A stretch of 64,000 nt of DNA from Paludibacteraceae bacterium (GTDB taxonomy: Bacteria > Bacteroidota > Bacteroidia > Bacteroidales > Paludibacteraceae): the NCBI GenBank assembly GCA_017454915.1, contig JAFTCC010000056.1:62001-126000 (forward strand), given 5' to 3'. The position numbers and the translations under genes are program-made. Below, in pieces: positions 4,038 through 51,616 of this stretch. Positions within the stretch are counted from its first letter, which is position 1; each line of letters begins with the position of its first letter. A model generated the notes under the pieces. The model ran no database searches and was not told where the DNA came from. It was given only the letters and a program-made list of their open reading frames with translations.

Positions 4038-4793
4038 TTAGTCTTTGAATTTGGCACTGATGAACTCGCGGTTGAGCCTTGCGATGTTGGCAAGCGAGAC
4101 AGACTTGGGGCATTCGGCTGCGCACGCTCCTGTGTTGGTGCAGTTGCCGAATCCGAGTTCGTCCATTTTTGCCACCATTGCTTTTGCACGTCTTGCCGCC
4201 TCAACTCTGCCTTGCGGCAGCAGTGCGAGTTGGCTGACTTTGGCAGCCACGAACAGCATAGCAGAGCCGTTTTTGCATGCTGCAGCGCATGCTCCGCATC
4301 CTATGCAGCTGGCTGCGTCCATTGCTTCGTCGGCTTTCTCCTTTGGAATAGGAATTGAGTTGGCATCGGGCACACCGCCGGTGTTGACGCTTATAAATCC
4401 GCCCGCCTGCATGATTTTGTCGTATGCTCCGCGGTCAACCATGAGGTCTTTGATTACGGGGAATGCGTGGCTGCGCCATGGTTCGATGGTGATTGTCTCG
4501 CCGTCGTGGAACTTACGCATGTGGAGTTGGCATGTGGTGATAGCGCTGTCGGGTCCGTGTGGGTGGCCGTTGACGTATAGTGAGCACATTCCGCAGATAC
4601 CCTCGCGGCAGTCATGGTCAAATGCTATGGGGTCTTTATGCTCGGAAATGAGTTTCTCGTTGAGGATATCCATCATTTCAAGGAACGACGCGCCTTGGAA
4701 TATGTCGTGGAGTTCGTATTCCTCAAAGTGACCTTTCTCTTTTGGTCCCGCCTGCCTCCAGACGCGAACCTTGATGTTAATATTTTTGTCCAT
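4038..4793 (-). CDS. frdB: Fumarate reductase/succinate dehydrogenase iron-sulfur subunit
   Basis: This 251-residue electron-transfer subunit carries the [2Fe-2S] cysteines C62, C67, C70 ([10 protein letters not shown]) and C88, and the [4Fe-4S]/[3Fe-4S] sets [11 protein letters not shown] (163-173) and [13 protein letters not shown] (218-228). It passes electrons between the haem/quinone subunit FrdC and the flavin of FrdA on the cytoplasmic face of the membrane. It is the last gene of frdCAB, 21 bases after frdA. In Bacteroidales this complex mostly works as a quinol:fumarate reductase; direction cannot be decided from sequence alone. Nothing is unusual here, in contrast to its two partners. 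Confidence 0.96.
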
Positions 4794-4814: not shown

Positions 4815-6965
4815 TTACGATTTGTAGTTGCGTGTTTTGCGCTCTGTGAACTCATATTCGAGCGGCTCTTTGATGAGTTCAGGTTCTGAGTCCTCACCGG
4901 TGTATTTCCAGCATGAAACGTAAGCGAACTTGTCGTCTTGACGGAGTGCTTCGCCTTCTTCAGTCTGGTATTCCTCGCGGAAGTGTCCGCCGCAAGATTC
5001 TTCGCGGTTGAGAGCGTCTAACGCCATCAGTCTGCCTATCTCAATGAAGTCGGCGAGGCGCAGAGCCTTTTCGAGTTCGTTGTTAAGGGCGTCGGCTTTG
5101 CCAGGGATATAGACGTTGGTCCAGAATTCTTTCTTGATTTCGTCAATTCTCTGTAATGCTTTTTTGAGGCTTTCAGCTGTGCGGCCCATGCCCACGAAGT
5201 CCCACATGACGATGCCGAGTTCTTTGTGTATGCTGTCAACAGAGCGTTTGCCCTGTATCTTCAGTATGCGTTCAATCTTGTCGTTGACGGCTTTTTCTGC
5301 TGCTGCGAATTCGGGCAGGTCGGTTGACATGCGCGGCACGCCGATTTGGTCAGAGAGGTAGTTCTGAATTGTGTAGGGCAGTACAAAGTAGCCGTCGGCA
5401 AGTCCCTGCATGAGGGCAGAAGCGCCGAGGCGGTTGGCTCCGTGGTCAGAGAAGTTGGCCTCACCGATGCAGAACAGGCCAGGAACGCTGGTCTGAAGTT
5501 CATAGTCAACCCAGATGCCACCCATGGTGTAGTGTATGGCGGGGTATATCATCATGGGGTTCTCGTATGGGTTCTCGTCAACGATTTTTTCGTACATCTG
5601 GAAGAGGTTGCCGTATTTTTGCTCAACGACATCCTTGCCAAGACGCTGTATGGCGTCTGAAAAGTCGAGGAAAACAGCCAGTCCGGTGTTGTTAACTCCG
5701 AATCCTGCGTCACAGCGCTCTTTTGCGGCGCGTGATGCCACGTCGCGAGGTACGAGGTTGCCGAATGCCGGGTAGCGGCGCTCGAGGTAGTAGTCGCGGT
5801 CTTCTTCGGGTATGTCGCGTCCTTTGATTTCGCCGCGCTGCAGGCGTTTTGCGTCCTCCAGTTTCTTGGGCACCCAAATGCGTCCGTCGTTACGGAGCGA
5901 CTCTGACATCAGGGTGAGTTTCGACTGGAAGTCACCGTGTTTAGGAATGCAGGTGGGGTGAATTTGTGCATAGCAGGGGTTCGCGAAGTACGCACCATGG
6001 CGGTACATCTGCATGGCTGCAGAGCCGTTTGAAGCCATAGCGTTGGTGGAGAGGAAGAAGGTGTTGCCGTAGCCTCCCGAGCCGATGACAACAGCGTGTC
6101 CGAAGAAGCGCTCGATTTGTCCGGTTACGAGGTTGCGGGCTATGATGCCACGTGCGCGTCCGTCAATGATTACGATGTCGAGCATCTCGTGGCGTGTGTA
6201 CATCTTCACTTTGCCTTTACCAATTTGGCGGCTCAGTGCGCTATATGCTCCGAGCAGCAGTTGCTGTCCCGTCTGACCTTTGGCGTAGAATGTGCGGCTT
6301 ACCTGTGCGCCGCCGAAGCTGCGGTTGTCAAGCAGTCCGCCATATTCGCGGGCGAAAGGCACGCCTTGCGCAACGCATTGGTCGATGATGTTGTTCGACA
6401 CTTCCGCAAGACGATAAACGTTGGCTTCGCGTGCGCGATAGTCACCGCCCTTGATGGTGTCATAGTAGAGGCGGTAAACAGAGTCGCCGTCGTTCTGATA
6501 GTTTTTAGCGGCATTGATACCACCTTGCGCTGCTATAGAGTGAGCTCGGCGCGGTGAGTCCTGAATGCAGAAGTTGAGAACGTTAAAGCCCATTTCGGCA
6601 AGCGATGCGGCAGCTGACGCTCCAGCAAGACCGGTGCCGACAACGATGATGTCAAGCCTGCGCTTGTTGGCGGGGTTGACGAGCTTCTGATGGTCTTTGT
6701 AATTCGTCCACTTGAGTTCGAGCGGTCCAGCAGGGATTTTCGCCATTTTAGGCGTTATGATTTTCGCTTCCCTTGCGGCTTCTTCAGCGGCATTGTCCAA
6801 GGCTATGTTGACCTCTTTTGCGGCTTGCTGAACAGCATCAACAGCCTGTTGAACGACTTCGGACGCTTTTTCGGCTACAGTTTCAGCCACGTCTTTCGCT
6901 GCCTTAACTGCTGCCTCTGCGGCATTTTGTGCCGCAGACAATATGTCTTCTTTCTTATTTGCCAT
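4815..6965 (-). CDS. frdA: Fumarate reductase flavoprotein subunit with an unusual alanine-rich N-terminal extension
   Basis: From residue 74 ([20 protein letters not shown]) this is a typical Bacteroidales FrdA: FAD-binding [13 protein letters not shown] near residue 109, flavin-attachment [19 protein letters not shown], and the C-terminal [19 protein letters not shown]. Residues 1-73 are additional: rich in Ala, Glu, Lys and Val with a helix-forming heptad-like pattern and no Cys, Trp or Pro until residue 72. Family members known to me begin at about MAKIP. That internal ATG (6744-6746) is also preceded by an AT-rich stretch, so it may serve as a second start. The first ATG at 6965 is preceded by AT-rich bases and lies 33 bases after frdC, and the extension keeps frame and coding character, so it is probably translated. 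It catalyses fumarate reduction to succinate. Confidence 0.95.
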
Positions 6966-6998: not shown

Positions 6999-7928
6999 TT
7001 ATTTTTCTGCCTTGCAGCACTCTGCGTCGGGTTTGCAGCATTCCGCTCCTTCTTTGCAGCATTCGGGTTTCTGCGCCTTGCAGCACTCTGCGCAATTGCC
7101 TTTGCAGCATTCCTCGCAGTTTCCTTTGCAGCATTGTTCGCAGGCCTGCTTGCATGCCTCGTCATGTGCTTTGCAGCATTCTGCCTTTTCGGCCTTGCAG
7201 CAGTCTTGTTTGTCCTTCATGCAGCACTCGGTTTGCTGTGGGCAGCTGTCTTTCAGTTTGGGCTCCAGTCCGCAGGCATAGCAGATAACAACGCTCAGGA
7301 ACATGAGCACTATCAAAGTAGCGAAGATATTTGAGATGACTTTAATGCGTGGCAGCCACGTGTTACCGCTTGCTCCCAGTGTGTGCATTCCCGACCAGAT
7401 GCCGTGTGTGAGGTGGAACCAGATGGCTCCGAGCCATACCACGTAGATGGCCACATAGTACCACTTGCTGAACGTGTAGCGTACGTAAGCGGCGCCGTCG
7501 GTGGGGTCAAATGAGCCGGTGGCGTGTCCGATGATTTCGGCAAACTGCATCCTGAACCAGAAGTTGAAGAGGTGTACGCATAGTCCGCCGAGAATTATGA
7601 TACCCAGCGCAAGCATGTTCTTTGAGTTCCAGTCAACACCCTCCTGACGAGCCTCTTGCGCGTAGCGGTCGTTGCCGCGGGCGCGGTAGTTCTGGATAGT
7701 CAGCATGAAGGCATAGACGATGTGAACAACGGCCAGAAAAGCCAGTCCGAGCGTGCCGACCAGTGCATACCAGTTGGCGCCAAGGAATTCGCAAATCATG
7801 TTGTACGCCTCCTGACTGAACAGAAGGGTAATGTTCATCGACGCGTGGAAGAGTAGGAAAAGCACAAGGCTCAAACCTGTAACGCTCATCACAACCTTAC
7901 GGCCGATGGAAGAATTAAAAAGCCACAT
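6999..7928 (-). CDS. frdC: Fumarate reductase cytochrome b subunit with a cysteine-rich C-terminal tail
   Basis: Residues 1-222 form a normal five-helix dihaem cytochrome b subunit, with histidines in helices at about H28, H69, H119 and H172/H175. It anchors FrdAB and exchanges electrons with menaquinone. Residues 225-309 are an added tail with 23 cysteines, nine of them CC pairs, at a spacing of 7-8 residues (consensus ECCK); the gap between pairs 3 and 4 is twice that spacing and holds single cysteines. The rest of the tail is Lys, Glu, Ala and Gly, so it is hydrophilic. An odd helix number with a basic N-terminus (GRKVV) suggests a periplasmic tail; this is inference. It resembles metallothionein in composition only. 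First gene of frdCAB, with a promoter at 7979-8010. Confidence 0.95.
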   Translation of the reverse strand: MWLFNSSIGRKVVMSVTGLSLVLFLLFHASMNITLLFSQEAYNMICEFLGANWYALVGTLGLAFLAVVHIVYAFMLTIQNYRARGNDRYAQEARQEGVDWNSKNMLALGIIILGGLCVHLFNFWFRMQFAEIIGHATGSFDPTDGAAYVRYTFSKWYYVAIYVVWLGAIWFHLTHGIWSGMHTLGASGNTWLPRIKVISNIFATLIVLMFLSVVICYACGLEPKLKDSCPQQTECCMKDKQDCCKAEKAECCKAHDEACKQACEQCCKGNCEECCKGNCAECCKAQKPECCKEGAECCKPDAECCKAEK

Positions 7929-9271: not shown

Positions 9272-9547
9272 CTATGGCATCACGAGAAAAATCTCGCAAG
9301 TGTCGAAGTTGATTTCCCAGTTGCCGTTTTCTGCCGACTCCCATTGGTACTTTTGTGCCATAACGTCCCACCAATGCTGAAATTTTGTGCCTGTTTCGCC
9401 CAAGTCCTTCACGAGTTTTTCATAAAGTTCGGCATTTTCGGCAGTAAGGATTTTCGCCAATTCGTTCAGTCCATTGCGGCGTTCAAAGAGACGCTGTATC
9501 TCGTTTTTTTCGTCAGATGTTACCTGTCCTACAAGTTTCTTTTGCAT
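9272..9547 (-). CDS. CXXX-repeat peptide modification-system protein
   Basis: This 91-residue protein (MQKKLVGQVTSDEKNEIQRLFERRNGL at the start, NGNWEINFDTCEIFLV at the end) matches my memory of the small helper family found with CXXX-repeat peptides and their radical SAM enzymes in Bacteroidales. The ATG at 9545-9547 is preferred to an upstream frame start at 9643, because the family begins there and the extra residues look non-coding. The first two thirds look helical. Its biochemical role is unknown; substrate binding or enzyme scaffolding is a guess. The gap upstream (9548-9782) contains a palindromic repeat and AT-rich words. Confidence 0.75.
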   Translation of the reverse strand: MQKKLVGQVTSDEKNEIQRLFERRNGLNELAKILTAENAELYEKLVKDLGETGTKFQHWWDVMAQKYQWESAENGNWEINFDTCEIFLVMP

Positions 9548-9689
9548 ATTGAATGATTTATAGTGTTGATTTATAATTGCATTTTGAGGTGTTCTTTCGA
9601 CAGATTTTCTGACAATAAATCTATTGTCATGCGACACCTCCATTACTCCACATCTCAGTAGAGATAAACTTGCTTTACTCGTGCGAAAC

Positions 9690-9714
9690 TGACATGACGT
9701 GTCATGTCCCTACA
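9690..9714 (-). repeat. Palindromic intergenic repeat, copy 2 (inverted)
   Basis: GACATGACGTGTCATGTC followed by CCTACA, so this copy is in the opposite orientation to the others. It lies in the gap between the modification-system gene and the second maturase gene. Confidence 0.75.
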
Positions 9715-9782
9715 GAGGTCAAAAGCAATATGAAAATACGTAAATACATAAATACGTAAATGTGAAAATACGTAAATAGTCT

Positions 9783-10769
9783 TTACCATTCTTTCTTTAC
9801 GTCGAACGGGTCGAGGTAGTCAATCTGTTTGATTTCTTCTCCTGCGCTCACCTCCGCTGCGGTGAGTAGTTGCTGCAAATCCCGTGATGCGTTGCGTTCG
9901 ATGTGAGCCAGCATACACTGCTGGTGCGAGGGTGTGTTGTTGTCCCACGTCAGCTTTTGGTTGAGCCAGATGCAGCGGTTGCAGTGATATGCGTCGCAGT
10001 TTCGGCAGAGTGGTGCATGGTCGAGTTTGAGCAGCTGCTGGTTTGGAATGTCCAGACCGCTGTCAAGGTTGCCCACATTGCGTTCCGACGATGGCTTGCT
10101 GTGGTTCATGCGGTTGCTTACACCTGTCCGCTCGTCGTAGTAGAACGCCGGACAGAGGTAGAACTTGCCGTTGGGTGCTACAGTGATGTTGCTTACGCCG
10201 GCTCCGCAGTTGTGCATCTCGGTCAGTTGCAGGCGGTCGGTGAGGATGTTCAGCTGAGGCTGTTTGCCAGACTTGAACAGATTGAGCAGCACGGCATTGA
10301 GAGTGCCCAGTGCCTTGCTATAGTCCTTAATTTGTCCATCATTGAAGTTCTCGATGTCCGTAAGGCAAATGTTCAGGCGTTTAACATGAGGCAGCAGGGC
10401 GGCTATATCATATTGCTTGGCGATGAACTCCTTAATCGGCAACCGCAACACGGCGTTCTTGGTGGCTATGGCGTCGGGCACGGAGTTATAGATTATGACA
10501 TCCATGTTTTCTAACGCCGCATGCTGTGTCGCGGCACTGCTTTCGCCCCATATCTTCACATTGTCGATGCTCTCTAACACCGCTTCGTACTGCTCGGGCA
10601 GGTCGTAGTCGGGATAGACATACTGGATCATCAGATTCTCTTTCATGCCGAAGAGTATCGCCTTCTTGAGAGTGTCAAGCGGCATGAGGTTACGCTCTGT
10701 GAGCGGATTGCAGGCATGGCAATACGCCACGCTCGTATCATCAAGTAAGATTACTAAATATTGTAACAC
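9783..10769 (-). CDS. CXXX-repeat peptide maturase (SPASM-like, no N-terminal radical SAM motif)
   Basis: This 328-residue protein starts MLQYLVILLDDTSVAYCHACNP and has a C-terminal SPASM-like region: HNCGAGVSNITVAPNGKFYLCPAF, then LCRNCDAYHCNRCIWLN and QQCMLAHIE. It corresponds to the second maturase type that accompanies CXXX peptides in Bacteroidales. The CxxxCxxC motif of true radical SAM enzymes is absent; only CHAC occurs near the start. It may therefore act as a partner or substrate-binding subunit of the 406-residue enzyme, with auxiliary clusters held by the C-terminal cysteines. It is 133 bases downstream of the radical SAM gene; that gap holds two palindromic repeats. Confidence 0.78.
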   Translation of the reverse strand: MLQYLVILLDDTSVAYCHACNPLTERNLMPLDTLKKAILFGMKENLMIQYVYPDYDLPEQYEAVLESIDNVKIWGESSAATQHAALENMDVIIYNSVPDAIATKNAVLRLPIKEFIAKQYDIAALLPHVKRLNICLTDIENFNDGQIKDYSKALGTLNAVLLNLFKSGKQPQLNILTDRLQLTEMHNCGAGVSNITVAPNGKFYLCPAFYYDERTGVSNRMNHSKPSSERNVGNLDSGLDIPNQQLLKLDHAPLCRNCDAYHCNRCIWLNQKLTWDNNTPSHQQCMLAHIERNASRDLQQLLTAAEVSAGEEIKQIDYLDPFDVKKEW

Positions 10770-10816
10770 GGTGTTATTTAATTATTTGACTATTTTGTTA
10801 TTTTCGTATTGCATTT

Positions 10817-10842
10817 TGTAGGGACATGACATGTCATGTCCG
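10817..10842 (+). repeat. Palindromic intergenic repeat, copy 3
   Basis: TGTAG followed by the perfect 20-base palindrome GGACATGACATGTCATGTCC (10822-10841). Confidence 0.8.
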
Positions 10843-10874
10843 CATTGCCCTCGTGGGTTGGCCTAATTTTGTAT

Positions 10875-10895
10875 GTACATGACGTGTCATGTCCG
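10875..10895 (+). repeat. Palindromic intergenic repeat, copy 4
   Basis: TACATGACGTGTCATGTCC, 34 bases after copy 3 and in the same orientation, with the GT centre also seen in copy 2. It ends 8 bases before the radical SAM stop. Confidence 0.75.
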
Positions 10896-10902
10896 CAGAC
10901 TA

Positions 10903-12123
10903 TCAGCAGACATCGGGTGTCATGGATTTGTGCTTGGCTTCGTACTCTTCGCGTTTGCCTTCTAACTCCAGTTTGCGGAATAGTTTGTTCCAATAATAAT
11001 TATTTGCTCGCACTCTGGCTTTGTGCATGAGGCAAATCGCTGTTGCTCGCTGATAGACGGTGTGCGTCTTTGCCGCGTCGAAGTTTTCGCCTTGGCACCA
11101 TGCGCAGCCTTCCGCCACCTCGCAGTCCACGCACTCCGGTGTGCTTTGCGTGCAGCGGTCGAGGGTCAGGAACGGACGCAGTTTGTTGTTGTCAATGCCG
11201 TCGTGTATGTTGCCTATTATCCATGCCTCTTTGTCGCGCAGACTGTACTGTGCGAAACGTGTGCATGGATAGAAGTTACCGGCGGCATCCACCGACAGCA
11301 TCTTACCCGCTCCGCACCAGTTCTGGTTCTGCAGCGTGCAGTCAAGCGGCTTACCCATGTGTTCCGAGAAAAACGAGCAGGCGTTGTCACGGTAGAGGCC
11401 GTTGTCGATGATGGCGTTAGCCAGTTGCATCAGCTGTTCCTCGAAGCGTTTGTCGTCGCCCTCATGCCACACGTCCTCAAACACGCAGTTGATGTTGACC
11501 TGATGAATGCCGAGGTCGTAGAGGTGCAGCACCGACTCGCAGATGTATGGTATATCGGCAGAGGAGATGGTAACCTTGGTGCCGTCGCCGGGGAACTGTT
11601 GCTGCCATAGCGCAATGTTGCGCACCACGTCGTCGTAAGACCCCTTGCCTGTAATCTTATACACCCGGTTGAGGTCGTGCTTGCGGCGTGTGCCGTCTAT
11701 CGTGATGCCGATGGAGAGGTGGCTTCTGTTTTTCTGTATGAACCGCTGCACCTTGTCGCTGTCGTAGTTGATGCCGTTAGTCGAGAACGAGAAGCGGTAG
11801 GAGTTGAACCAGTGGTGGTTACGGCGGTAGAGTTCTTGTTTTATATAGTCGCAGATGCGGTCTATGAGGTCTATTTCGAGGAACGGCTCGCCGCCGATGA
11901 AGTCCCATACCACGCTCTCGTATGCGAAGTTAGGGTCATTCTCACGGTCGAGGACATAGTCGATGGCAGCTTTTGCCACTTCGAAAGGCATGCGCTCCTT
12001 CTCGTTTTTGCCCACGAGATAGCAGTATTTACATGCCAACTGACAGTCCTTGGTGACAATGAACGTGATGTTCTTCGCCATACCCGACTGCCACGCTTCT
12101 TGTTGGGATTTGATAGTATTCAT
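10903..12123 (-). CDS. Radical SAM/SPASM peptide maturase, CXXX-repeat target family
   Basis: This 406-residue enzyme has the radical SAM cluster motif CQLACKYC (C27, C31, C34), a DFIGGEPFLE segment, and a SPASM domain (NWCGAGKMLSVDAAGNFYPC, then CVDCEVAEGCAWC and ICLMHKA) for auxiliary iron-sulfur clusters. Family knowledge: SPASM enzymes modify ribosomally made peptides, often forming thioether or carbon-carbon crosslinks. The inferred substrate is the peptide encoded at 12686-12976, four cysteine-containing steps upstream in the same direction. Its ATG overlaps the stop of the 83-residue gene by 4 bases. The chemistry performed on the CXXX core cannot be read from sequence. Confidence 0.88.
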   Translation of the reverse strand: MNTIKSQQEAWQSGMAKNITFIVTKDCQLACKYCYLVGKNEKERMPFEVAKAAIDYVLDRENDPNFAYESVVWDFIGGEPFLEIDLIDRICDYIKQELYRRNHHWFNSYRFSFSTNGINYDSDKVQRFIQKNRSHLSIGITIDGTRRKHDLNRVYKITGKGSYDDVVRNIALWQQQFPGDGTKVTISSADIPYICESVLHLYDLGIHQVNINCVFEDVWHEGDDKRFEEQLMQLANAIIDNGLYRDNACSFFSEHMGKPLDCTLQNQNWCGAGKMLSVDAAGNFYPCTRFAQYSLRDKEAWIIGNIHDGIDNNKLRPFLTLDRCTQSTPECVDCEVAEGCAWCQGENFDAAKTHTVYQRATAICLMHKARVRANNYYWNKLFRKLELEGKREEYEAKHKSMTPDVC

Positions 12124-12371
12124 AGGTATTCGCTCATTTCTTCTTTTGCCTTATTTATAACATCGTCTGCAAATCTTCCAGATTTAGACATAGGGTACAC
12201 CTCGTTAAACACCACAAAAATTTCCTCATCGGATAATTGAGTCAAATCTTTTTCAAGCACAGGCGTAGGCTGGAAATTTGCTAAAGAACTTTTAATACTA
12301 TTTCCATCCTTATCTTTACAATCTTCTGTGTTGATATTATACTTGTTTTTCAAAAAATCTTTAAGTTTCAT
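12120..12371 (-). CDS. Small acidic protein of the CXXX cluster, unrecognised
   Basis: The ATG at 12369-12371 gives 83 residues beginning MKLKDFLKNKYNINTEDCKDKDG and ending in an acidic helix. An upstream in-frame start at 12422 would add 17 residues of hydrophobic sequence (GTFFTIIIVKT) that looks like non-coding AT-rich DNA. The stop overlaps the radical SAM ATG, so translation is coupled and a partner role is likely. The short length, leader-like N-terminal helix and one cysteine leave two options: a second precursor or a substrate-recognition protein. I do not recognise the family. Confidence 0.65.
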   Translation of the reverse strand: MKLKDFLKNKYNINTEDCKDKDGNSIKSSLANFQPTPVLEKDLTQLSDEEIFVVFNEVYPMSKSGRFADDVINKAKEEMSEYL

Positions 12372-12430
12372 GGTTTTAACTATAATAATCGTAAAAAAAG
12401 TCCCACCCACCTCCCATTGCAATTTTTTGA

Positions 12431-12670
12431 TTAAATTCTTGTCAAATACTCTTTCAACTTATCTACAATTTCATTCTCATCGGTGTCTTCGTGGAGATAA
12501 ACAATAGCACGAATTTTCCCATAATTATCGTCACTGACGTTAGCCTTTTTAATATAACCCAGAGAATTTAGTTGAGTTTTGATGTACTCTTTGTCAACGA
12601 CATCCTCAAAATCAATGGATATGTAATGAATATCCCCAGCGTGAACCTTACTAATATGAAATTTATCCAT
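12431..12670 (-). CDS. Small unrecognised protein of the CXXX cluster, possible recognition element
   Basis: This 79-residue protein (MDKFHISKVHAGDIHYISIDFEDV at the start) shows alternating strand-like and helix-like segments ending DTDENEIVDKLKEYLTRI, compatible with a ferredoxin-like or winged fold. It sits 15 bases after the precursor gene and 59 bases before the 83-residue gene. It has no cysteine and no signal peptide, so it probably stays in the cytoplasm. Position suggests handling of the precursor leader. That role is inference; I do not recognise the family. Confidence 0.65.
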   Translation of the reverse strand: MDKFHISKVHAGDIHYISIDFEDVVDKEYIKTQLNSLGYIKKANVSDDNYGKIRAIVYLHEDTDENEIVDKLKEYLTRI

Positions 12671-12685
12671 AGAGAAGCGAATTAA

Positions 12686-12976
12686 TTACCAGTTAGCATT
12701 GTTAGAACCAGTGCACATACCACGACAAGTGCCTCTACAAGTTGTATAGCAGTCGTTTTGACATGAACCCATACATGCATTAGAACCGCACATACCATCA
12801 CAGCCGCCGTAACAATTACCTGTGCAACCCCAGTCGCATCCCATTTCTGATGCTTGCGCCTTAATTGGCAGTGCGCTTAATACCACCGCACCGATGACTG
12901 GCAATGCGGCTTTTGCTGCTGATTTGAAGAACTCACGACGTGACTGGAGTTCCTCTTGCTTGTTTTCTTTTTTCAT
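12686..12976 (-). CDS. Tat-leader CXXX-repeat precursor peptide
   Basis: This 96-residue peptide has a twin-arginine leader: SRREFFK at residues 12-18 fits the S/T-RR-x-F-x-K consensus, followed by a hydrophobic stretch (AALPVIGAVVLSALP) and a likely cleavage after AQA near residue 42. The core has 11 cysteines at 47, 51, 55, 59, 63, 68, 72, 76, 80, 84 and 88: a strict CXXX period of four except one five-residue step. The spacer residues are mostly Gly, Asp, Asn, Arg and Thr. It is the first gene of the cluster encoding two maturases and TatAC. The likely fate is enzymatic modification of the cysteines followed by export of the folded product. The product and its role are unknown. Confidence 0.9.
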   Translation of the reverse strand: MKKENKQEELQSRREFFKSAAKAALPVIGAVVLSALPIKAQASEMGCDWGCTGNCYGGCDGMCGSNACMGSCQNDCYTTCRGTCRGMCTGSNNANW

Positions 12977-13410: not shown

Positions 13411-13518
13411 TTTGGTCATTTGGCCGTGTTTCGTTTGGTCATTTGGCCGTGTTTCGTTTGGTCATTTGGCCGTGTTTCGTTTGGTCATTTGGCTGATTTT
13501 CATTTGGTCATTTGGTAA
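13411..13518. repeat. Tandem 23-base repeat array 1
   Basis: Four full 23-base units starting TTTGGTCATTTGGC (13411, 13434, 13457, 13480) plus a 16-base partial unit. Units 1-3 are identical; unit 4 has drifted. No spacers are present, so this is not a CRISPR array. It lies between the ATPase terminator and the CXXX promoter. Confidence 0.9.
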
Positions 13519-13570: not shown

Positions 13571-14860
13571 TTAATCTTTTAGGCAGCCGATTGGTACAAC
13601 CATTACTCCGTCGGTGCGCATATATGCATACTGTCCTACGGCTGTAAGCACCATTTTGAATGATGGCTTCTTCATTTTGGTTGTGTCAAGTTTATTTTCT
13701 AGATTAATCAAATTGGCGACTCCCTCATCAATTAACTTCTCGCCTCCTAACTTAATTTCAATGAGTCCGTAGTTGCCATTTCTCAAATGTACAACAGCGT
13801 CGCACTCTAATCCGTTTTTATCTCTATAATGGAATACATTTCCATAATTTGCTTCCGCATAAACACGAAGGTCGCGCACGCACAGAGTTTCAAACAGCAG
13901 TCCCATGGTGTTCAGGTCGTTTATTAGGTCATTGGGGCCAAGGCCTAACGCGGCAACAGCTAATGACGGGTCTACGAAATAACGCGTGTCACTGGTTCGT
14001 ATTGCGGTTTTGGAACGCAAATTAGGATTCCATGCTGGCATGTCCTCGATAACGAAAATCTTTTTTAATGCCTTTATATACGATGCAATAGTCTCGTCAC
14101 TTATATTAGACACTTCATTGGTTCTCATGTCTTCTACAATCGTCTGAATGCTCGTCATGGCACCTTGTAGTCGCGCATAGGAGCGCATCAGTCTTTTTGC
14201 GCGAAATTCGTTTCTTTCCACACCGTCCACTCGCGATATGTCAGAACGGGTTATCGCCTCGAAATATTCATAAACTTGCTTAAGCGCTGTTGCTTTGTTT
14301 TTTTTGTACACAGATTTCGGCCACCCGCCCCTGCAAATGACATAGGCTATGTCTTCAAGCTGCAAAGAACTTTCTCCGTTTATCTTTTCCGGATGTGTGA
14401 ATAACGATTTAAGGCTGACCTCACCAGACGACTCATCGGACTCCCATAGTGTCATAGGTCGCATAGTAAGCCATGCAAAACGGCCCGCACCAGTATGCTG
14501 AATTTTAGAGTTGTCGGCTGGTACCGCAGAGCCGGTGAGTATAAAAAGTCCGTCAGCCTTACGGTGATCTGCCTCAAAACGCACCGCATCCCATATTTGC
14601 GGCGCAATTTGCCACTCGTCAATGAGTCTTGGATTATTACCTTGAAGCAAGCGTTTTACATCGGTCTCCGCCAAATGTAAGTTCTGTTGTATGCTTGTTG
14701 GATCATCCATGTAAATGATGCTTTGGGCCTGCTGTTCTGCTGTAGTTGTCTTTCCACAAGCCTTGGGACCTTCGATGAGAACGGCTCCCATTGTTTCAAG
14801 TTTTTCTGCTAATAAAATATCGGCAATTCTCTTGCTATATTTAAATGCGTTATCTGACAT
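13571..14860 (-). CDS. AAA-type ATPase with DUF4143 domain
   Basis: This 429-residue protein has a Walker A motif (EGPKACGKTTT, near residue 30), a Walker B-like segment (PRLIDEWQ), LTGSAVP as a sensor-like segment, and a C-terminal DUF4143 part with GLECDAVVHLRNGNYGLIEIK, which fits the D-ExK pattern of PD-(D/E)XK nuclease-like folds. This family is common in Bacteroidales, often in multiple copies; its function is not established. It has a promoter at 14886-14917 and a terminator at 13521-13547, so it is a single-gene unit. It is flanked by matching repeat arrays and neighbours a toxin-antitoxin pair, so it is probably part of an accessory segment. Confidence 0.9.
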   Translation of the reverse strand: MSDNAFKYSKRIADILLAEKLETMGAVLIEGPKACGKTTTAEQQAQSIIYMDDPTSIQQNLHLAETDVKRLLQGNNPRLIDEWQIAPQIWDAVRFEADHRKADGLFILTGSAVPADNSKIQHTGAGRFAWLTMRPMTLWESDESSGEVSLKSLFTHPEKINGESSLQLEDIAYVICRGGWPKSVYKKNKATALKQVYEYFEAITRSDISRVDGVERNEFRAKRLMRSYARLQGAMTSIQTIVEDMRTNEVSNISDETIASYIKALKKIFVIEDMPAWNPNLRSKTAIRTSDTRYFVDPSLAVAALGLGPNDLINDLNTMGLLFETLCVRDLRVYAEANYGNVFHYRDKNGLECDAVVHLRNGNYGLIEIKLGGEKLIDEGVANLINLENKLDTTKMKKPSFKMVLTAVGQYAYMRTDGVMVVPIGCLKD

Positions 14861-14931: not shown

Positions 14932-15039
14932 TTTGGTCATTTGGCCGTATTTCGTTTGGTCATTTGGCCGTGTTTTATTTGGTCATTTGGCCGTGTTTCG
15001 TTTGGTCATTTGGCCGTATTTCGTTTGGTCATTTGGTAA
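14932..15039. repeat. Tandem 23-base repeat array 2
   Basis: Units at 14932, 14955, 14978 and 15001 plus a 16-base partial unit: the same unit and the same count as array 1, with A/G changes at one position. The array ends 15 bases before the -33 box of the ATPase promoter. Confidence 0.9.
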
Positions 15040-15660: not shown

Positions 15661-15714
15661 CCGCCCGCAAAAAAAAGACGCTATTGCGTGCCTACCTTGC
15701 GCGCGTCCATCACG

Positions 15715-16135
15715 TTTATTTCTACGGAGGTATGGAGTTATGGAGTTTTTATCTCTACGGAGGTATGGAGTTATGGAGTTTTTATCTCTACGGAGGTATG
15801 GAGTTATGGAGGTTTTATCTCTATGGAGTTGTGGAGTTATGGAGTGGTGTTTATCTCTGCGGAGTTGTGGAGTTGTGGAGTGGTGTTTATCTCTGCGGAG
15901 TTGTGGAGCTATGGAGTGGTGTTTATCTCTGCGGAGTTGTGGAGTTGTGGAGTTGTGTTTATCTCTGCGGAGTTGTGGAGTTATGGAGTGGTGTTTATCT
16001 CTATGGAGTTGTGGAGTTTTGGAGGTTTTATCTCTATGGAGTTGTGGAGTTGTGGAGTGGTGTTTATTTCTACGGAGGTATGGAGTTGTGGAGTGGTGTT
16101 TATTTCTACGGATGGGTGTCGTTATGGAGGTGAGG
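15715..16135. repeat. 33/36-base tandem repeat (minisatellite)
   Basis: Eleven units, each starting TTTAT(C/T)TCT, of 33 bases (units 1-3 and 9) or 36 bases (units 4-8, 10 and 11), then a degenerate twelfth. Inside each unit the word GGAGTTNTGGAG recurs. All length differences are three bases, so all three plus-strand frames stay open through the array, but none has a credible start or domain. It fills the gap between the recA hairpin and the toxin-antitoxin promoter. Confidence 0.9.
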
Positions 16136-50356: not shown

Positions 50357-51616
50357 CTATGCTATGCAGTCGTCAAGAGCCTGTTTTATTGCTTTTTTGT
50401 TGAGGTTTTGCCCTATGAAGACGAGTTTTTGCATTCTGTCTCCATATGTGTCGTCCCATTCTGCTCTTATTTTGGGTTCTCTATTGAGCAGCTCTTGAAG
50501 CTCTTCTTGAGGCATGGTAGCAAACCACTGACCGGCCTGACGGAGCGAAACCTGTTTGCCGGCTTGCTCGAATACGTAGCACATATTGCGTTCGTCGTCA
50601 AAATAGACCATTCCTTTGGCGCGTATGATTCCAGACGGCCATCTACGTGCAACGAAGTCATCAAACAACTCGAGGCTGAATGGTTTTCTGTTTTGGTAAA
50701 CGTATGTCCCGATGCCGTATTCTTCAGCTTCGCCCTCATCGTGATGATGGTGATGGTGGTGCTCATGCTCGTGCTCATGTTCATGCTCATGCTCGTGTTC
50801 ATGTTCATGCTCGTGTTCGTGCTCATGCTCATGTTCATGTTCATGCTCATCGTCATCATTGTCATCGTCATCATCGTCATCGTGATGATTTTCAACTTCT
50901 TGAATCCATGCTGCGGATCCAGCAACATCATCAAAGTTGAAGAGTCCGGTGTTGAGCAGCTTCTCGAGTTCCACATCGCAGTAGTCGCATTCGATGATTT
51001 GAGCTTTAGGCTGTATTGCCTTGATGATTTCTTTGATTCGTCCGAGTTCAGATGCCTTGATGTCGTGCGCTTTGTTGAGCAGTATGATATTGCAGAACTC
51101 GATTTGCTGAATGACGAGGTTTTCGATGTCGTCTTCGTCGAGGTTTGGATTGGTGAGCGACAGTCCCGACTGGAATTCATCTTTGAGTCGCAGTGCGTCG
51201 ACGACAGATACGATGCAGTCGAGACGTGGCATGCCTGTCTGCTGGTATTGTGGTATCATTTCAGGCATTGAGCAAATGGTTTGCGCAATGGGGGCAGGTT
51301 CGCAAATTCCGCTGGCTTCGATGACGATGTAGTCGAACTGCTTTTGCTCGATGAGCCCTTGCAGTTGTTTGACGAGGTCCATCTTGAGTGTGCAGCAGAT
51401 GCACCCGTTTTGAAGCGCGACGAGATTTTCATCGCTTTCTTTAACGATGCCTCCTTTGGCAATGAGGTCCGCGTCGATGTTGACTTCTCCGATGTCGTTG
51501 ACGATTACTGCGAATCGTATTCCACGTCTATTGGTGAGTATGCGGTTGAGAAGTGTTGTTTTGCCGCTGCCGAGGTATCCGGTTAGCAAAAGAACCGGAA
51601 TGTCATTATTATTCAT
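50357..51616 (-). CDS. CobW/COG0523 GTPase with a long Glu-His tract (metallochaperone)
   Basis: This 419-residue GTPase has Walker A LLTGYLGSGKTTLLNRIL, the metal site GCICCTL and the NDIGEVNIDADLI and ASGICEPAPIAQTI segments of the COG0523 family. Between the GTPase and C-terminal domain (YGIGTYVYQNRKPFSLELFDDF) there is a run of Asp, then about 15 Glu-His repeats, then seven His; DNA position about 50740-50890. Family knowledge: members load or deliver zinc, cobalt or nickel. The tract should hold several metal ions. Its 5' end overlaps the TPR stop by 8 bases. Confidence 0.93.
   Translation of the reverse strand: MNNNDIPVLLLTGYLGSGKTTLLNRILTNRRGIRFAVIVNDIGEVNIDADLIAKGGIVKESDENLVALQNGCICCTLKMDLVKQLQGLIEQKQFDYIVIEASGICEPAPIAQTICSMPEMIPQYQQTGMPRLDCIVSVVDALRLKDEFQSGLSLTNPNLDEDDIENLVIQQIEFCNIILLNKAHDIKASELGRIKEIIKAIQPKAQIIECDYCDVELEKLLNTGLFNFDDVAGSAAWIQEVENHHDDDDDDDNDDDEHEHEHEHEHEHEHEHEHEHEHEHEHEHEHHHHHHHDEGEAEEYGIGTYVYQNRKPFSLELFDDFVARRWPSGIIRAKGMVYFDDERNMCYVFEQAGKQVSLRQAGQWFATMPQEELQELLNREPKIRAEWDDTYGDRMQKLVFIGQNLNKKAIKQALDDCIA

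Follow-up and report, generated by a model that had tools for sequence, protein, structure and literature searches.

The question raised by this locus is why the cytochrome b subunit of a fumarate reductase should continue, beyond its last membrane helix, into a long segment rich in paired cysteines. The window, by which we mean the whole 64,000-nucleotide stretch of DNA that was analyzed, comes from a gut-type bacterium, and its frdC/sdhC gene (6999..7928, minus strand) encodes a b558-family cytochrome b subunit of 309 amino acids whose C-terminal residues 225-309 (7002..7256, minus strand) contain 23 cysteines. An answer depends on whether the enzyme part of the protein is normal, on where else such a tail is found, and on what its hosts have in common.

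The cytochrome b subunit and its tail

FrdC is a normal b558-type cytochrome b with an intact core. In a profile search, residues 6-220 align with positions 1-210 of the 212-position TIGR02046 model for the sdhC b558 family (E=2e-61; 207 bits against a cut-off of 96), which makes the protein a full-length member of this family and, because the match stops at residue 220, indicates that the enzyme part ends near that point. Five hydropathy peaks define five helices, and His28, His69, His119 and His172 are all present at the four heme-ligand positions; the same four histidines are predicted heme ligands in the FrdC of Prevotella bryantii (PMC10739449). The gene also lies in the expected operon, being preceded by tatC and tatA and followed by genes for the flavoprotein subunit, frdA (4815..6965, minus strand; PRK07573, score 1162), and the iron-sulfur subunit, frdB (4038..4793, minus strand; PRK07570, E=2.4e-127). 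FrdA has a lineage-variable end of its own, a long helical N-terminal extension of approximately 70 residues rich in Ala, Lys and Glu, the counterpart of which in relatives can be as short as a few residues or longer than 100.

The 85-residue, 23-cysteine extension past the last helix that was reported in the first-pass annotation is real and lies entirely outside the TIGR02046 match; it amounts to about 81-85 residues, with cysteines at residues 229-305. There are nine CC pairs, mostly in the form ECCK, with Glu before the pair in seven cases and Lys after it in eight. The annotation had the pairs 7-8 residues apart, and both the count and most of the spacings stand (8, 8, 15, 8, 8, 8, 7 and 7 along the tail), the exception being a 15-residue gap that contains two single cysteines (C-x3-C). 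The longer pattern C-x2-CC-x3-C-x2-CC occurs twice. Cysteine makes up 28% of the tail, Phe, Trp, Tyr, Ile, Leu and Val are absent from residue 227 onward, and there is almost no His, so in its very high cysteine content and want of aromatic residues the tail has a metallothionein-class composition. Homology to a described metallothionein family was not found, however, as the tail has no match in Pfam or NCBIfam.

At the DNA level, Tandem Repeats Finder (TRF) detects a 24-bp tandem repeat of 2.8 copies inside the tail (7078..7143, minus strand; 83% match between units) that encodes an 8-residue unit such as CCKGNCEE, indicating that part of the tail arose by repeat duplication. All 23 cysteine codons are TGC, a uniformity that says little since the window itself uses 61 TGC to 6 TGT. 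The lysine codons that follow CC are split between AAA (5) and AAG (3) and the glutamate codons between GAA and GAG, so there is drift at synonymous sites with the residues unchanged. These features agree with the earlier proposal of growth by repeats in which frame and cysteines were kept. An assembly frameshift as the origin of the tail, the artifact the annotation had allowed for, is unlikely, because the tail forms a single open frame to a TAA located 33 nt ahead of the frdA ATG and because in-frame CCK repeats occur in unrelated proteins of related species.

The loops rich in Lys and Arg sit on the even (cytoplasmic) side of the five hydrophobic helices, an arrangement that would put the C terminus on the periplasmic face; from topology and homology together we infer a periplasmic location for the tail, in agreement with the first reading of the sequence. 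The tail is probably disordered, being hydrophilic, repetitive and variable in length.

Distribution of the module among proteins and genomes

FrdC was present in 273 of the 300 genomes of this Bacteroidales family that were searched, and a tail-only query of the full set of 358 family genomes returned no second FrdC bearing a long CCK tail, so the tail is as unusual for this enzyme as had been supposed. The sole congener genome, which is 65% complete, has no frdC match in its assembly. Nearly all of the FrdC ends examined extend 0-20 residues, most of them within about 10; ends of about 35-40 residues come in two kinds, neither of them built from CCK repeats. At three loci (L049, L050 and L042) FrdC has a longer C-terminal tail rich in Val, Ala and Glu (e.g. 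CCTAECCAAHAHTCAEAVAPVVDTVQTVVEAVVDTVAVVAE), which represents another lineage-specific extension. Among 42 distinct short FrdC ends of relatives, 29 contain at least one cysteine and 10 contain at least three (e.g. GCCGSSCCAA), for an overall cysteine content of 16%, and it is plausible that ends of this kind were the seed from which the tail expanded.

The tail search and a DNA pattern for CCK-CCK-CCK also turned up the module outside FrdC. The pattern matched 19 of the 358 family genomes, about 12 of which have real CCK open reading frames; in 387 genomes from outside the family such frames were seen only in G391 and, weakly, in G707. The module is thus confined almost entirely to this family. 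Most order-level pattern matches are not CCK proteins, and among individual candidates L081, L084, L089, L093 and L098 were discarded for having no CCK reading frame, and L091 and L083 for being short or out of frame. No such module was found in viral contigs, and the genome of the window has no second cysteine-rich protein of this kind by tail search (E<=10), DNA pattern or lipoprotein query.

The hosts are diverse. In addition to FrdC they include the C termini of NqrC, which is the periplasmic Na+-NQR subunit, small lipoproteins (L082 has CCKHEGE repeats), longer lipoproteins (L096, L097 and, from another family, L119), and a lipobox-containing M13-type peptidase with an internal CCK insert (L085/L168), the peptidase family being assigned by eye and not by a profile. 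One further fragment (L086) is truncated by a contig end. Leaving this fragment aside, all genuine carriers for which the N terminus could be read have a signal, a lipobox or a known topology that places them outside the cytoplasm, and an extracytoplasmic, membrane-tethered location is all that these unrelated hosts have in common. Given this variety of hosts, the FrdC tail is a portable extracytoplasmic module of the form ([E/D/Q]CCK-x3-5)n, and a reading that ties it solely to fumarate reductase chemistry beside the quinone site is not supported.

Among the NqrC loci read, those of 11 species in one genus (g21) carry tails with 7-24 cysteines, as compared with a cysteine content of 0.25% in NqrC bodies and 0.4% in non-carrier NqrC tails. 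On the NqrC tree the trait requires about six changes, at least three of them forced by well-supported branches, and carriers cluster more than shuffled labels do (0 of 500 as low), which suggests that there were several gains or losses with inheritance afterwards. When three homologous NqrC tails are compared, invariant columns number 18 of 21 for cysteine and 11 of 46 for everything else (Fisher p=2.6e-6), so the conservation of cysteines amid drift that was to be looked for in the tail is found, although in NqrC and not in FrdC. The C-x2-CC-x3-C-x2-CC spacing is common to FrdC and three NqrC tails, and shuffles of each tail yield it with a probability of 0.012-0.019. Two NqrC tails have HHH clusters beside their cysteines (8 Cys and 10 His in L200; 10 Cys and 16 His in L206). 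This exchange of cysteine motifs for Cys/His clusters between orthologous tails of related species favors metal binding, one of the roles first put forward for the FrdC tail, over pure thiol chemistry. A different 60-residue NqrC end (..YGEAAKDGAIVITTKK), seen at loci L138, L139 and L195, resembles the plug motif of TonB-dependent receptors.

The small lipoprotein adjoins a PASTA-domain gene and rluD in most g21 genomes read and is usually cysteine-rich. Members of this syntenic family (L214-L272) have 0-22 cysteines beyond the lipobox and match no Pfam or NCBIfam family above cut-off; as the same is true of the FrdC tail, horizontal capture of a known domain was rejected as an origin. In one member (L251, from G117) a transmembrane anchor appears to stand in for the lipobox. 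No metal-resistance genes were seen beside the lipoproteins in neighborhoods read by eye.

The cysteine content of this lipoprotein appears to be inversely related to that of the NqrC tail. A Cys-rich lipoprotein occurs in none of the six species with a long NqrC tail versus 22 of 29 without one (Fisher p=0.001, uncorrected); when phylogeny is considered, the six count as about three independent events, for which the chance is about 0.014. In four of the six (G234, G172, G282 and G279) the lipoprotein is present with only its signal-peptide and lipobox cysteines, and no copy was found in the other two (G251 and G220). This pattern suggests that the NqrC tail may functionally replace the Cys-rich lipoprotein. 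Four other species (G237, G188, G231 and G232) have moderate amounts of both. The genome of the window has the FrdC tail, a Cys-free NqrC tail (L160) and no lipoprotein of this kind at its PASTA locus (L249), nor was a Cys-rich one found elsewhere in that genome.

Candidate functions of the tail

The reading we favor, with a probability of roughly 0.55, is that the tail is a portable, membrane-tethered, metallothionein-like buffer of periplasmic metal. FrdC would tether the module to the periplasmic side of the inner membrane, where its vicinal cysteine pairs could bind soft or borderline metal ions, with Cu(I), Zn, Cd, Ag and As(III) as candidates, in metal-thiolate clusters. The module would in this manner buffer or sequester metal at the membrane surface, and its host enzymes would serve as abundant membrane anchors. 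Composition, cysteine conservation, Cys/His interchange and movement between hosts count for this proposal; the low His content of the FrdC tail, the small number of independent reciprocity events, the four species bearing both forms, the restriction of the FrdC tail to one genome and the lack of visible metal-resistance neighbors count against it.

A broader proposal concerns the choice of hosts. In P. bryantii, NQR and fumarate reductase (QFR) form one supercomplex that even SDS does not readily dissociate (PMC8516057), and NqrC is flavinylated in the periplasm (PMC4767422). If, by analogy, an NQR-QFR supercomplex also exists in this family, the module would face the same side of the assembly, toward the periplasm, whether NqrC or FrdC carried it. 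We tentatively propose that the module has been swapped over evolutionary time between a dedicated lipoprotein and one or other of the supercomplex partners, that each new host makes the old one redundant, and that the respiratory chain doubles as a periplasmic metal buffer.

A role for the FrdC tail as redox sensor or redox buffer, also raised in the first-pass annotation, is a less likely reading that found no specific support. In the version we weighed, a periplasmic thiol buffer or scavenger, the cysteine pairs would alternate between dithiol and disulfide states, or would capture oxidants, quinones, electrophiles or sulfane sulfur, close to the fumarate reductase menaquinol site or the NqrC FMN. 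Vicinal cysteines rarely form a disulfide with each other, which fits poorly with such cycling, and neither the Cys/His-cluster tails of NqrC orthologues nor the presence of the module on small lipoproteins that have no redox site would be expected of it. What keeps this explanation in view, as an unlikely one, is that the tails of FrdC and most NqrC carriers use Cys only, that thiols would presumably stay available in an anaerobic periplasm, and that both hosts belong to redox enzymes joined in a single supercomplex in P. bryantii (PMC8516057).

It is less likely still that the tail is neutral, a short CC end of FrdC that grew by replication slippage and was tolerated because it dangles in the periplasm. 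The 24-bp repeat, the cysteines in 29 of 42 short ends of relatives and the limitation of the FrdC tail to one genome are what such a history would leave. However, mutation alone would not be expected to keep cysteine columns against drift in NqrC tails, to spare CCK while synonymous sites change in FrdC, to select extracytoplasmic carriers throughout, or to produce the reciprocal pattern of NqrC tail and lipoprotein.

Delivery of a metal or cofactor to the host's own complex is a third idea, and an improbable one. NqrM is a maturation factor for NQR, and the tail might in a similar way give iron to its complex at assembly, for heme in FrdC or the [2Fe-2S] center of NqrD/E. The FrdC and NqrC hosts do belong to iron-sulfur and heme complexes (PMC10739449), but the module is also found on lipoproteins and a peptidase, and in most relatives the same enzymes lack it.

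Across tatC and tatA from frdC, the window encodes a CXXX-repeat peptide modification (RiPP) cluster (9272-12976, minus strand) comprising a precursor (TIGR04117) whose leader has a Tat-like RR and whose core is CXXX, a radical SAM protein (TIGR04115), a maturase (TIGR04119), a TIGR04116 protein and a 100-aa open reading frame of no family. That the tail is a substrate of this neighboring system, both targets being Cys-rich, is hardly credible, as the precursor spacing is regular CXXX and not CC pairs, TIGR04115 exceeds its cut-off in 3 of 13 in-family carriers checked (G000, G172 and G017) versus 5 of 20 controls and so shows no association, and neither whole FrdC nor the tail alone matches TIGR04117 or TIGR04114, a match found only for the separate precursor at 12686-12976.

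Other repeats in the window include two nearly identical 23-bp arrays of 4.6 copies (13411-13515 and 14932-15036) on either side of an ATPase-like gene (13571-14860), followed by a 36-bp array of 11.4 copies (15714-16112). In a CobW/G3E GTPase of the metal-chaperone type (50357-51616, minus strand), the two domains are joined by a very long (EH)n-HHHHHHH linker, which an 18/24-bp repeat (50760-50850) encodes.

The distribution of the module offers a natural experiment: among related anaerobes the same cysteine-rich segment is carried by FrdC, by NqrC or by a lipoprotein, and cysteines are gained in one place where they are lost in another. This pattern points to an as yet unnamed periplasmic demand for metal (or thiol) in these bacteria, which would bear on the handling of copper, zinc or arsenic by abundant gut and rumen anaerobes. 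The analysis also defines a previously undescribed family of small lipoproteins.

Relationship to known systems

In the literature searched, with subscription journals largely outside it, no paper was found on extracytoplasmic metallothionein-like modules of respiratory complexes, on NqrC cysteine tails, on periplasmic metallothionein or on a Cys-rich Bacteroidales lipoprotein. That the module sits on respiratory complexes, that it changes hosts and that it has a counterpart in a lipoprotein all appear to be new, whereas a putative metal-binding, Cys-rich peptide as such is already a known kind.

With other b558-type fumarate reductase cytochromes b (TIGR02046; P. bryantii FrdC, PDB 9lay chain C) the present protein shares five helices, the heme histidines 28, 69, 119 and 172 and the operon frdCAB, but the homologues examined stop 0-40 residues past the last helix, and a long CCK tail is absent from all of them. 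NqrC (TIGR01938), which joins QFR in the SNFR supercomplex, is tailed like the present FrdC in 11 related species, although most NqrC proteins of the family, including that of this genome, have acidic, Cys-free ends. Bacterial metallothioneins such as SmtA and MymT resemble the FrdC tail in their very high cysteine content and, by prediction, in metal-thiolate binding; however, proteins of this type are small and are treated as cytosolic copper binders (PMC7558416), whereas the CCK-repeat module is an extracytoplasmic tail on respiratory membrane proteins or lipoproteins that matches no Pfam or NCBIfam family. The copper storage proteins Csp1 and Csp3 likewise pack many cysteine thiols for metal storage, but they are rigid four-helix bundles before copper binds (PMC7558416), whereas the FrdC tail, hydrophilic, repetitive and variable in length, would probably be disordered.
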